From positions 1 to 21,255 of the IMG/VR virus record IMGVR_UViG_3300033388_006767: a stretch of 21,255 bases of DNA; one strand, written 5' to 3'. This document shows, in pieces, positions 6,902 to 19,248 of the stretch (its first letter is position 1; each line of letters starts with the position of its first letter). A program made the translations under genes and the position numbers. Origin of the DNA: a virus. The notes under the pieces are model-generated. The model made no database searches, had not been told where the DNA came from, and saw nothing but the letters and a program-made list of their open reading frames with translations.

Positions 6902-7300
6902 ATGACAAATAAAAAAAATAAAATGATAGAATCAATTAGTACTAAAACAGATGCCTATCTAACTGAAGAAAAAAAAATGATGGGTTTTTATCTGGATCAA
7001 GAACAAGCAAATCAAATGAGTTTATTTTCTTTTATCTATGGAAAATCTAAAGCATCCATAATTAAAGAATTAATTGAGAATTTTCTTTCTGAAGATAGTA
7101 TTAGTACAAAAAAATTAATGGAAAAAATAATTGATCTTGGAATTAAAGATTGGCAAAATTTTAAAAAAATAGATCCTGTTAAAGATAAAAAAAATCAATG
7201 GAATAGATATGAAGAAAAATTTAGAAAAACGCTAACAAGTAAAAGGATTCCTGAAGTAATAATTGAAGAACTTATTGAATTAATAAAAGGCAAAAAATGA
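6902..7300 (+). CDS. Possible ribbon-helix-helix DNA-binding protein
   Basis: Residues 27-63 (MGFYLDQEQANQMSLFSFIY then GKSKASIIKELIENFL) fit the ribbon-helix-helix pattern: a short strand, a helix, a turn with Gly, then a helix starting with small residues. Such proteins dimerise and bind operators with the strand. The rest of the 132-residue protein is charged and helical, with no motif I recognise, so a repressor/regulator role is likely but unproven. AAGGA precedes the ATG. The 3' end overlaps the Rad50-like gene by four bases (ATGA), which places it in the recombination operon. Confidence 0.6.
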   Translation: MTNKKNKMIESISTKTDAYLTEEKKMMGFYLDQEQANQMSLFSFIYGKSKASIIKELIENFLSEDSISTKKLMEKIIDLGIKDWQNFKKIDPVKDKKNQWNRYEEKFRKTLTSKRIPEVIIEELIELIKGKK

Positions 7301-8496
7301 TACAAAATATCCAAATAAAAGACTTTCAAAGCCACAAAGATTCCCAATTAACTTTAGACTCTGGGGTAAATGTGGTGATAGGGAGTTCAGATTGTGGAAA
7401 AAGTAGTATTATTCGGGCAATTAAGTGGGTAGCCCAAAATAGACCACAAGGAGATTCTTTCAGAAATAATCAACTCAAACCAAAAGAAGAAGTGCGGGTT
7501 GATCTTACTTTTAAAGAAGGACCTACAGTTTCCCGGCTTAAATCTAGTAAAACTAATTCTTATATAATTGGTAAAAAAGAATTAAAAGCTCTCAGATCAG
7601 ATGTTCCGGAAGAAGTAAAAGAATTAACCAGAATAAAAGAAGTTAATTTGCAAAGTCAACATCCTTCCGATCAGTATTTTTTACTAACTGATTCCCCAGG
7701 TCAAGTAGCTAAAAAATTTAATGAGGTAGTTGGTTTAGAAATTATGGATAAAGCCATGTATTCCATTAATTCAAAAGTTAGAGAAAATAACCAACAGTTA
7801 AAAATATATGATGATGAGATTCTGAATAAAAAAACAGAATTACAGAAATTAAAATGGGTTCTTGGTGCTAAAGAAAAAGCTCTTCAAATTGAAGAAATAG
7901 AAGAAGATACAGAAACTCAACAAAATAAAAAAGAACAACTGGAATCTTTACTTTTACTGATTACAGAAGTGCAGAATAATTTAAAGAAGTACAATGGAGT
8001 AAATCAAGCAATAAAAAAGATAAAAAATCTTATAATCCAAGAAGAACAAATCCAGAAATTAGAAAAGAAAAATAATACGATAAATCATCTCATTGATTTT
8101 ATTAAAAATACAACAGAAGAAAATACCAAATATCAATATTTATCACAAGCATTAAAAGAAATAAATAATCTTATAATTCAAGAAAAAGAAATACAGGTAA
8201 CAAAAAATAGAAGAAATATTATAGATACGGTAGTTAATTGCGTTATAAAAGCAGATACACAGGTTAGGGAATACCAATATATACCTGAAGCAATAACCAG
8301 CCTTAAATCGCTTCAAAATATGGTAAAAATAATAACAGAAAAGAAAAGAAAAACCAAACAAATACAAACAGAATTATTCTCAATTAGAAAAAAGGCAATA
8401 ATTAAAAAAGAAATTGATAAAAAACTTCTAGAAAAGCAAACCGCATTTACAGAATTATTAAAAACAAACCAATGTCCAATTTGTGGGAGAAAATAA
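7297..8496 (+). CDS. N-terminal half of a split Rad50/SbcC/gp46-like ATPase, ending in a zinc hook
   Basis: This encodes the N-lobe of an SMC/Rad50-type ATPase. MIQNIQIKDFQSH matches the conserved start of SbcC, Walker A is GSSDCGKSS (29-37), and the Q-loop region is LQSQHPSDQYFLL (near 115-127). The ascending coiled coil (about 160-385) includes a 47-residue tandem repeat. The protein ends at NQCPICGRK with Cys393 and Cys396, the CxxC zinc hook that joins two Rad50 molecules. In SbcC this hook is in the middle, followed by a descending coiled coil and the Walker B lobe. Here a stop codon comes three residues after the second Cys, and the missing lobe is encoded at 9912-10523. The next gene starts directly after the stop. 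Confidence 0.88.
   Translation: MIQNIQIKDFQSHKDSQLTLDSGVNVVIGSSDCGKSSIIRAIKWVAQNRPQGDSFRNNQLKPKEEVRVDLTFKEGPTVSRLKSSKTNSYIIGKKELKALRSDVPEEVKELTRIKEVNLQSQHPSDQYFLLTDSPGQVAKKFNEVVGLEIMDKAMYSINSKVRENNQQLKIYDDEILNKKTELQKLKWVLGAKEKALQIEEIEEDTETQQNKKEQLESLLLLITEVQNNLKKYNGVNQAIKKIKNLIIQEEQIQKLEKKNNTINHLIDFIKNTTEENTKYQYLSQALKEINNLIIQEKEIQVTKNRRNIIDTVVNCVIKADTQVREYQYIPEAITSLKSLQNMVKIITEKKRKTKQIQTELFSIRKKAIIKKEIDKKLLEKQTAFTELLKTNQCPICGRK
8005..8427 (+). repeat. Tandem 141-bp (47-codon) repeat within the coiled coil of the Rad50-like gene
   Basis: Units begin at 8005, 8146 and 8287, exactly 141 bases apart. The first two share 43 of their first 51 bases (encoding QAIKKIKNLIIQEEQIQ and QALKEINNLIIQEKEIQ). 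They also end alike (KYQYLS, EYQYIP), with KYNGVN just before the first unit. The third unit (EAITSLKSL...) is weaker, and a decayed one may begin near 7864. The period keeps the reading frame and lengthens the coiled coil. Confidence 0.7.
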
Positions 8497-8751
8497 ATGA
8501 CGCATTACTCAGATAATCCAGATAGCGTTTTGGTTTCTTTTTTTAAACAATCTGATAAATGGCACACAAATGAAGCTGTTATATGGACGGGGGCATACGA
8601 TCATCTGATACACGATGCTTTTGTGACAAGTTTACGAGATCATTTCAAAGATAACCCACAAAGATTATCGAATATGGATGCGATTTGTTTAAATCCTTAC
8701 CATGAAAATGCCCACCCGATTCAAATTAAAAATGGAGGTTGGAATAAATGA
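8497..8751 (+). CDS. Small conserved-looking protein of unknown function inside the gp46/47-like operon
   Basis: An 84-residue protein without a recognised domain. Visible features are an N-terminal SVLVSFFKQSDKWHTNEA segment, a helix containing IHDAFVTSLRDHF (38-50), and a C-terminal MDAICLNPYHENAHPI segment (60-75) rich in His, Cys and Asn. The last resembles conserved ends of small phage proteins I have seen without a function. It begins directly after the zinc-hook gene stop, with its GGGAG ribosome site inside the hook codons, and its stop overlaps the nuclease start (AAATGA). It therefore separates the Rad50-like N-half from the Mre11-like gene. There is no membrane segment. Confidence 0.68.
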   Translation: MTHYSDNPDSVLVSFFKQSDKWHTNEAVIWTGAYDHLIHDAFVTSLRDHFKDNPQRLSNMDAICLNPYHENAHPIQIKNGGWNK

Positions 8752-9677
8752 AATTTATAGCTTGTGCTGACTTGCACTTTACAGATAAAATTCCTCGTAA
8801 TCGCAAAGATGATTATTTTGCGGCCCAATTAATGAAGTTTGGTCAAATATTAGAAAAAGCGGAATATGACGAAGCTGATTTATTAATTGCAGGAGATGTT
8901 TTTGATTCCGTCAAAACTCCATATAAAATTACAAAAGCAATTATGGAAGTAATAAGCAATTATGGAGTTAATATATATACTACTTTTGGCCAACATGATT
9001 TAGTGTACCATTCAAAAGGATTAAATAATACTCCGTTAGGGATCCTATCTACAATGGATCAGGTTACTATTTTAAATAATAAAACCAAAATCAGTATAAC
9101 AGATGGAATAGAAGAAAGTACTTTAATTGGGGCCGGATGGAATCAAGTACCTAAAGAAGAAGCAGATATTTTAATTACTCATCAAATGGTAGTACATAAA
9201 AATCCTTTATGGCCCGGGCAAGAAGAATACAGCACAGCAACCCAAATAATGAAAAAATACCCATGGGCTAATTTTATTATTTCAGGAGATAATCATTTAC
9301 CATTTATAGTTGAAAAAAAGGAATATGGTAGATTTCTAATTAATTGTGGTTCAATAATGAGAAAAGGGAAAGATCAAATAAATCATGAACCTGTAATCTG
9401 GTTGATTAATACCCAAACAAGAGAAGTAGAAAATATAAAATTAAAAGTACAACCCTATAAAAAAGTGTTTGATCTTAGCAAAATTAAAAGAGAAGAAATC
9501 CAAGAAGAAATAAAAAACCAAACAAAAGAAGACATTGATCAATTTGTAAAATCCTTAGAAATGTCAGGGAATAAAAAACCAAATTTTAAAAATGTATTAA
9601 AAAAGGTAATACAAGAAATGAATCCAGATAATGAAGTTAAAGAAATAATTAATAATTTAATGGAGGAAATTGCTTAA
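8748..9677 (+). CDS. Mre11/SbcD/gp47-like metallophosphoesterase nuclease
   Basis: The product is the nuclease partner of the Rad50-like ATPase and would process DNA ends for recombination. The calcineurin-type metal motifs are in order: ADLH (Asp8, His10), AGDVFD (Asp50), GQHD (81-84, where most Mre11 proteins have GNHD), THQM (His145) and GDNH (180-183). The Asn-to-Gln change in motif III is notable because that Asn binds metal, though I recall GQHD in other phage gp47-like proteins. The C-terminal 60 residues are helical and charged and could form the region that docks on the Rad50 coiled coil. The length (309) is shorter than SbcD (about 400), consistent with a minimal capping domain. One-base overlap (TAATG) joins it to the next gene. 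Confidence 0.9.
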   Translation: MKFIACADLHFTDKIPRNRKDDYFAAQLMKFGQILEKAEYDEADLLIAGDVFDSVKTPYKITKAIMEVISNYGVNIYTTFGQHDLVYHSKGLNNTPLGILSTMDQVTILNNKTKISITDGIEESTLIGAGWNQVPKEEADILITHQMVVHKNPLWPGQEEYSTATQIMKKYPWANFIISGDNHLPFIVEKKEYGRFLINCGSIMRKGKDQINHEPVIWLINTQTREVENIKLKVQPYKKVFDLSKIKREEIQEEIKNQTKEDIDQFVKSLEMSGNKKPNFKNVLKKVIQEMNPDNEVKEIINNLMEEIA

Positions 9678-9910
9678 TGGATATTTTAAATTTACATAAA
9701 GTTTTAGAAAACAAAAAACAAGAACAAGCCAAAATTCAAGGCAAATTAGAAACCTATTTAACCAATCTTAAAGATTTAGGATTTGACTCAGTTAAAAAAG
9801 CGGAAAGTGCCGTTAAAAAATTAACAAAAGAAATCGAAGAAATGGAGATAAATTATCAAGATGATTTAGAAAAATTTGAAGAAGAATATTCTGAATTATT
9901 GGAAAATTAA
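9677..9910 (+). CDS. Small coiled-coil protein between the Mre11-like and Rad50 C-half genes
   Basis: A 77-residue, nearly all helical protein with heptad-like spacing on both sides of a central LGFDSVKKAESAVKKL segment (33-48). That hairpin-like layout suggests two helices folding back on each other. It starts on the stop of the nuclease gene (TAATG) and ends one base before the ATG of the Rad50 C-half. By position and composition it could supply the coiled-coil segment missing from the split Rad50, or act as an assembly factor. This is inference, since no family is recognised with certainty. Confidence 0.65.
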   Translation: MDILNLHKVLENKKQEQAKIQGKLETYLTNLKDLGFDSVKKAESAVKKLTKEIEEMEINYQDDLEKFEEEYSELLEN

Positions 9911-9911
9911 T

Positions 9912-10523
9912 ATGGGAATAAAAAAATACATAAAAAAATTAAATGAAAAAGATACCCAAAGAAAATTTGTTAAACAAGAATTACTTAAGTGGAAGAAAAG
10001 GAAAAAATACTCCACAACCTATTTAGATAAATTAGAACAAAGTAGGAGTATTATTCAGAAGGCTGCCCAGACTACTCAAAGTTATTTAAGTTTACAAATT
10101 TCCGGTATTGTAAGTAAAGCTCTAAAAGCCGTTTTCCAGGAAGAAGCCTATGATTTCAAAGTAGATTTTGTTCAACGAAGACAATCCACAGAATGTGATT
10201 TATTATTTACTAAAAATAATAAGGATATGAAGCCTCTTGATTCCTGTGGATATGGGGCTGCCGATATTGCCTCTCTTGCTTTACGAATTGCATATTGGAA
10301 ACTGGATGAAGAAGCCAGAAATGTAATTATTTTAGATGAACCCACCAGAAACCTTAGTTTGGATAAACAACCACTTGCTGGGCAAATCATTAAACAATTA
10401 TCGGATTCTTTAGATTTACAATTTCTCATTGTAACCCATAATCAAACTTTAGCAGACACTGCGGATAAATTATTCAATGTAACTAAAAATTCAGATATAA
10501 GTCTTATAACGCAAAAAGCGTAA
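9912..10523 (+). CDS. C-terminal half of a split Rad50/SbcC/gp46-like ATPase
   Basis: This is the second ATPase lobe. After a short helical lead (about 1-60) come the signature-type motif SCGYGAADIASLALRIAYW (111-129), Walker B VIILDEPTRNLS (138-149, catalytic Asp142-Glu143) and the H-loop VTHN (His176). There is no CxxC hook and only a short coiled coil, so this 203-residue protein must pair with the N-half at 7297-8496 to make an active ATP-binding head. The signature has GYGAAD instead of LSGGE. The ATG at 9912 is preceded by GGAAA at good spacing. A TTG further upstream (9876) would overlap the coiled-coil gene by 35 bases and has no ribosome site. Confidence 0.88.
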   Translation: MGIKKYIKKLNEKDTQRKFVKQELLKWKKRKKYSTTYLDKLEQSRSIIQKAAQTTQSYLSLQISGIVSKALKAVFQEEAYDFKVDFVQRRQSTECDLLFTKNNKDMKPLDSCGYGAADIASLALRIAYWKLDEEARNVIILDEPTRNLSLDKQPLAGQIIKQLSDSLDLQFLIVTHNQTLADTADKLFNVTKNSDISLITQKA

Positions 10524-18804: not shown

Positions 18805-19248
18805 ATGACTGTGATTGCTTATAAAGATAACTTAATTGCCATGGATTCCAGAATGAGTGCTGGTAGTTATATTTTAGATGATAATTATCTAAAATACGCT
18901 CATAAAAAAGACTATCATTTTTTCTACACTGGTTCTGAATTTAATTTAGATGTTTTAATTGAACACACTATAGATAAAAAAATAGGAAAAAATCCTGGTT
19001 ATGATATAAGTTGTGCTGCTCTTGTATTAGATTCAAAAGGTCTTTTTTGGCAAGCTGCCTTTGATTATGATGATGGGTTTTGGGTAGCAAATAGAGATTT
19101 GAATAAATATTACGCAATTGGCCGTGGAATGACTCATGCTATAACTACTATGGACTTAGGTTTTACAGCAGAAGAAGCTGTTAAAATGGCAATTAAAAGA
19201 GAGGCAAGTTGTGGGGGAGAAATTAGAATTTTTAATTTAAAGACTTAA
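18805..19248 (+). CDS. Proteasome/HslV-like Ntn hydrolase
   Basis: The sequence MTVIAYKDNLIAMDSRMSAG aligns with the start of proteasome beta subunits and HslV (T.TI....G.V.A.D.R.T.G). If the Met is removed, Thr2 becomes the N-terminal nucleophile. Asp14 and Arg16 fit the conserved Asp-x-Arg, and Lys30 (in NYLKYAHKK) fits the Lys33 position of proteasomes. The middle has FFYTGSEFNLDVLIE (38-52) where the family has a T/AG strand, and the end has YYAIGRGMTHAITTMDL...AEEAVKMAIKREASCGGEI, like the family's A.GSG...A....A..A...GG. At 147 residues it is smaller than HslV (about 175). Whether it is a protease or only keeps the fold is unknown. It directly follows the broken GT2 gene. Confidence 0.75.
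   Translation: MTVIAYKDNLIAMDSRMSAGSYILDDNYLKYAHKKDYHFFYTGSEFNLDVLIEHTIDKKIGKNPGYDISCAALVLDSKGLFWQAAFDYDDGFWVANRDLNKYYAIGRGMTHAITTMDLGFTAEEAVKMAIKREASCGGEIRIFNLKT

Follow-up and report, generated by a model that had tools for sequence, protein, structure and literature searches.

The long antiparallel coiled coil and the mid-chain hook of Rad50 are regarded as basic to the sensing and tethering of DNA ends by Mre11-Rad50. Natural archaeal Rad50 is a single chain with a mid-chain hook, a pair of matched coils and the signature S(G/A)G. In phages, gp46/gp47 of T4 and comparable SbcCD proteins form an end-processing pair encoded near UvsX-type recombination genes, and the gp46-type ATPase is also a single chain with a central hook and a canonical signature. 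SbcCD is near-universal in jumbo phages (PMC7824862). Here, the 21,255-base virus record IMGVR_UViG_3300033388_006767 (the window) was analysed. Its positions 7297-10523 very probably encode a split Mre11-Rad50 (SbcCD-like) complex, which shares the N-lobe, the C-lobe, the CPxC hook and the Mre11 partner with archaeal Rad50-Mre11 (1f2t, 3qkr, 3aux, 9a9j), the closest sequence kin of the two halves, but differs from archaeal Rad50 in each of the four features above and from the gp46-type ATPase in the chain, the hook and the signature. The five open reading frames (ORFs) reported there by an initial annotation were reproduced with their coordinates: an N-half, an 84-residue ORF, a Mre11-like nuclease, a 77-residue coiled-coil protein (S) and a C-half, all on the plus strand.

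As read from the sequences, the split is found in this virus, in hundreds of related viruses and in some Bacillota plasmids. Alignment queries were needed because, against viral contigs, the window C-half alone gave no matches and the window N-half alone retrieved only one locus, L008. The searches of IMG/VR resulted in 65 loci with the N-half alignment and 392 relatives with the C-half alignment (the 80 top-ranking relatives were read); a genome-contig search added 13 loci, metagenome-assembled genomes (MAGs) throughout. After duplicate removal, the N- and C-lobes were on separate ORFs in 129 loci, none of which encoded one chain with a mid-chain hook, and a Mre11 gene stood alongside both halves in 128 of them. 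The order N-half, Mre11, S, C-half of the window was determined in 103 loci; N-S-C-M, N-M-C and N-S-C (M for Mre11) were found in 20, 5 and 1, respectively. The queries were half-proteins, and a lobe-level match should retrieve fused proteins equally well. The only unsplit proteins met were two outgroups, each with a canonical signature and a central hook: a gp46-like protein of 583 residues with LSSGEKKR and central CPYC (L073) and a 1054-residue Mre11-Rad50 fusion of a Vibrio phage (L006). A continuous SbcC-length ORF, named by the initial annotation as an observation that would speak against the split, was not seen in any close relative.

The N-half (399 residues, 7297-8496) consists of an N-lobe (approximately residues 1-146), a repeat arm and a C-terminal zinc hook. 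It was matched to AAA_23 (1.6e-9) and phrog_16465 (E 3.5e-34), and the profile built from 79 relatives had archaeal Rad50 as its top match among solved structures (3aux, E 5e-13). The Walker A motif GSSDCGKS occupies residues 29-36 (7381-7404), of which G29, G34 and K35 are invariant across the 79-row alignment, as are both cysteines of the hook. The CPxC hook known from Rad50/SbcC is present as CPIC at residues 393-396 (8473-8484) and, as annotated earlier, the stop codon follows after three more residues. Of the 66 complete N-halves of the first survey, 64 had exactly one CxxC, with 23 residues or fewer between it and the C-terminus. The AlphaFold2 model of the N-half had a mean predicted local distance difference test (pLDDT) of 85 and a predicted template modelling score (pTM) of 0.42, and its first Foldseek matches were Mre11-Rad50 9a9j and Rad50 1f2u.

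The C-half (203 residues, 9912-10523, from the ATG at 9912; an alternative TTG at 9876 would give 215 residues) begins with a helix at residues 2-78, which is followed by the C-lobe. It was assigned to phrog_15167 (E 1.2e-24), and the profile of 85 relatives gave archaeal Rad50 as the top solved structure (3qkr_B, 1e-16; 1ii8_B, 4e-16). With the AlphaFold2 model (mean pLDDT 95), Foldseek listed an SMC head first and then Rad50 1ii8_B (8e-10) and 1f2u. Profiles and predicted folds thus bear out the earlier view of both halves as Rad50/SbcC-like. Conservation was determined from an alignment of 142 C-lobes, 141 split and the outgroup L073. The end of Walker B, LDE, lies at residues 141-143 (10332-10340), with D142 in 142/142 and E143 in 141/142 C-lobes, and the switch (H-loop) histidine is residue 176 (10437-10439; 137/142). 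Taken together, the two halves contain the Walker A, Walker B and switch histidine of a Rad50/SbcC head, with Rad50-related sequence and fold. In one locus (L009, 10207-10842), the C-half is in two ORFs, possibly due to an error or an insertion.

The ATP-binding cassette (ABC) signature departs from this picture. The initial annotation had placed both a signature motif and Walker B in the C-half; Walker B was found as described, whereas the signature is not canonical but degenerate, the window having SCGYGAAD and not LSGGE. The motif CGYGAAD (residues 112-118, 10245-10265) corresponds to xGxGxxD in the family, with G113 in 141, G115 in 138 and D118 in 131 of the 142 C-lobes. The signature of Rad50 is given as S(G/A)G (PMC10418313), a form not conserved in these C-lobes: no serine is conserved, and position 112 is serine in only 69 of 142. 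The HMMER register pairs G113 with the Rad50 serine, and an alternative register likewise leaves no conserved serine. The ATP site is probably hydrolysis-active with an altered trans-contact.

The Mre11/SbcD-like nuclease (309 residues, 8748-9677) was identified by PF00149 (9.7e-9), SbcD models and the five metallophosphodiesterase motifs, all of which were found. In the group of the window, motif III is GQHD instead of the usual GNHD (8988-8999) and motif V is GDNH instead of GHxH (9285-9296), so that two likely metal ligands have been exchanged. Among 139 relatives, the motif III/V pairs were (Q,D) in 70, (N,D) in 23, (N,H) in 46 and (Q,H) in none. A linked change to Q and D is suggestive only, with p = 0.125 in the independent-pair sign test on supported branches. 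S (77 residues, 9677-9910) lies immediately upstream of the C-half. Its profile matched in 137 loci, with a length of 75-100 residues across relatives and a median S-C gap of -4 nt; no match to S was found in the PDB. By this recurrence, the Mre11-like nuclease and S are conserved partners of the halves, in agreement with their earlier inclusion in the system. The 84-residue ORF between the N-half and the Mre11-like gene (8497-8751), which had been included as well, was rejected as a subunit: a lone homologue was found among all ORFs of the surveyed loci, far from the cluster in L144. Descent of S from a duplicate of the C-half helix was not accepted either, as the hhalign match (probability 62%, E 8e-5) lies in a coiled-coil background.

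The arm of the N-half (residues 147-392, 7735-8472) is helical and is composed of five units of about 47 residues, as determined by lag-47 self-similarity and the AlphaFold2 helix breaks at residues 185, 232 and 326. Between units 3 and 4, 15 of 47 residues and 63% of the DNA are identical, a score unmatched in 2,000 shuffled draws. In 28 gap-free arms of 198 residues, the hydrophobicity correlation was highest at lag 47 (0.53), and the profile similarity of arms peaked at lags 47, 7 and 94. Measured between residue 147 and the hook, the arm lengths were discontinuous among relatives, with clusters near 151, 197, 245, approximately 290-301 and 346 residues, and the copies per arm ranged from 3 to 7. 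A quick tree calculated from the N-lobe and the C-half of 107 loci showed 20 or more changes of repeat class and placed the five-unit window among four-unit relatives.

S (mean 86 residues) and the C-half (mean 212 residues) remained roughly constant as the arm varied. There was no overall correlation between the arm length and that of S plus C (rho 0.16, p 0.33); the N-half length correlated with those of S (rho -0.33, p 0.04) and C (rho 0.39, p 0.016), all values being uncorrected for phylogeny and start-codon uncertainty. Judged from the lengths, the matched pair of equally long antiparallel coils known from Rad50/SbcC was not found. Since the arm varies by 47-residue units while S and the C-half stay constant, an ordinary descending coil of matching length is absent; the earlier remark that this coil is mostly missing was thereby confirmed and sharpened. 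We infer the topology of the arm from the lengths and the predicted helix breaks. A step of 47 residues corresponds to about 13 α-helical turns and would preserve the helical phase between hook and head. The arm length could therefore change by whole repeats without rotating the hook relative to the head.

Judged by motifs and profiles, the Rad50 ATPase head is encoded as two halves. The N-half supplies Walker A, the Q-loop, the entire outgoing arm and the terminal hook; the signature, Walker B and the switch histidine lie in the C-half, along with a short helix for the arm base. The conserved partnership, the complementary motifs and the known separate-chain structures strongly imply that the halves assemble in trans into a single ABC head. 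Such a head would be physically sound, because in the crystal heads 1f2t and 3qkr the N part and the C part are entered as different chains. Two heads would close over two ATPs and hold a Mre11 dimer at the base, and a zinc ion bound by two terminal CxxC motifs would join two N-halves at their far ends. S may brace the arm base or supplement the missing descending coil, and the arm would probably pair with that of the sister subunit and not with a descending coil within the same chain. The complex would open and resect DNA ends under ATP control to supply the neighbouring UvsX and T4-like recombination-dependent replication. The full form of this proposal is offered tentatively, as a possible arrangement: a Rad50 without an intramolecular coil, in which two repeat N-arms lie side by side from head to hook, the repeat number sets the rod length, the C-half completes the heads in trans, S caps them and ATP is read by xGxGxxD.

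Three observations weigh against the trans-assembled complex. The AlphaFold2 model of the N-half, with its low pTM and a weak region at about residues 276-299, leaves room for a folded-back arm. The conserved serine with which the signature contacts ATP in trans is missing, and therefore ATP-driven closing may differ. Finally, the hook is absent from 2 of the 66 complete N-halves, those of Microbacterium phage Magritte and L071.

The folded-back arm is the chief structural rival. The N-arm would be an antiparallel hairpin with CxxC part-way down the arm, and the returning helix and the C-half helix would form a normal coiled coil. The AlphaFold2 break at residues 293-299 within the low-confidence region is followed by a confident helix at 328-389, and the helix lengths fit, as the 146 outgoing residues would face 90 returning ones and about 56 contributed by the C-half. 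However, the hairpin requires paired changes in both strands, and for that reason the repeat changes disfavour it: the repeat number is both odd and even (3-7), and its 20 or more changes have no counterpart in the C-half. In addition, the remaining predicted helix breaks are of 1-2 residues, resembling kinks rather than turns, and the hook is terminal at all arm lengths. We consider the hairpin unlikely. A single dominant helix break as the apex of the arm was rejected, as the break positions scatter and no apex is shared.

The trans-assembled head was also weighed against explanations in which no Rad50 complex is formed. It is very improbable that the halves are degenerate remnants or separate ATPase fragments without a joint head. 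The unconserved signature serine, the two hookless N-halves and the broken C-half of L009 could be taken as decay, but the near-invariance of D142, E143, Walker A and the hook cysteines despite great divergence, and the joint occurrence of the halves in almost every locus and in one shared set of nine plasmids, point the other way. An anti-phage-type ABC ATPase (MADS mad3, AriA or Gabija-like) instead of a repair complex is still less probable. PADLOC matched the C-half to mad3 (2e-14) and the N-half to AriA (4e-10) and mad3 (8e-10). These, however, are single-chain ABC ATPases; no full defence system is present, the partner is a Mre11, the surroundings are replication and recombination genes, and the best match among solved structures is Rad50. 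Neither the Mre11-like protein nor S was matched by PADLOC, and the single chain with cognate genes of MADS, Gabija and PARIS was not found. There is a negligible probability that an ordinary SbcC gene of the window was broken by a recent frameshift or by an error in assembly or sequencing, the last a doubt already raised by the initial annotation. Such an error cannot account for more than 100 independent split loci, and the survey of 129 loci, in which other genes intervene and each half has its own conserved length, together with the separate PHROG families, refutes both this explanation and a pseudogene.

The split was also detected in isolated phages, namely Bacillus vB_BboS-125, Microcystis Mvi-JY20 and Microbacterium Magritte, and in an uncultured 485-kb phage. 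In Magritte, the halves are far apart within its record. In vB_BboS-125, a complete Mre11 gene is unannotated (L002 9247-10227, phage positions 22423-23403). By visual inspection, S and the C-half of the 485-kb phage are apparently separated by a sliding-clamp-like ORF (L007 8285-9418). AP2-domain or HNH-like genes follow the N-half in some loci (L002 7407-7979 and L007 4448-5179); insertion of homing elements into an ancestral gene might be how the split arose.

The tblastn searches of PLSDB with the Bacillus-type N-half and, separately, with the C-half resulted in an identical set of nine Bacillota plasmids. The halves are about 75 kb apart in the Jeotgalibacillus plasmid. In those of Geobacillus, Brevibacillus and Aneurinibacillus (L168-L170), Mre11 is fused ahead of the N-half in proteins of 801-937 residues with the hook 19-20 residues from the C-terminus, and S and C are separate ORFs. 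Since Mre11 is fused to the N-half there while the C-half stays apart, Mre11 fusion is tolerated and joining of the lobes is not seen. Mre11-Rad50 fusions have been described for Mimivirus R555 and a Clostridium kluyveri plasmid (PMC3175470). They resemble the three plasmid proteins in that Mre11 is joined ahead of a Rad50 part, in viruses and plasmids; the plasmid fusion, however, ends at the hook with S and the C-half separate, and the text of PMC3175470 contains no split, zinc or hook.

No description of a split Rad50 was found in the open-access papers searched, although absence there is not proof. The N-half and C-half families phrog_16465 (exonuclease) and phrog_15167 (ATPase) are kept as two unrelated families, and their names give no joint Rad50. 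Mad3 of MADS has similarity to the C-lobe (2e-14) and more weakly to the N-lobe, but its single 374-residue profile over both lobes is too short for the long arm. The likeness of the C-half (9912-10523) to Mad3 hints at a shared ancestry. We place the system as one that would work like Mre11-Rad50 yet lacks three canonical Rad50 features, namely the single chain with a mid-chain hook, the matched coils and the S(G/A)G signature. New here are the 47-residue repeat arm, the xGxGxxD signature and the plasmid Mre11-N fusion with a separate C-half. If assembled as proposed, the complex would be a natural test of Mre11-Rad50 construction, and its separate small parts would allow direct tests of arm length, helical phase, hook position and head assembly. 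The two PHROG families and many proteins annotated as hypothetical or exonuclease become readable as halves of one machine.

Upstream of the N-half, the window encodes a DNA polymerase, a clamp loader, a weak UvsY-like protein, a UvsX-like recombinase and an endonuclease VII; a T4-like recombination module is the best reading of this neighbourhood. The UvsY-like recombination mediator match, at 2351-2860, was weak (phrog_231, 3e-4). An HslV-type peptidase family match was detected at 18805-19248 (phrog_1040, 5e-26). Among the surveyed loci, L075 and L154 are one 102,562-base contig, present both in IMG/VR and in a MAG of Candidatus Tenebribacter davisii, which may reflect a host link or a binning error.

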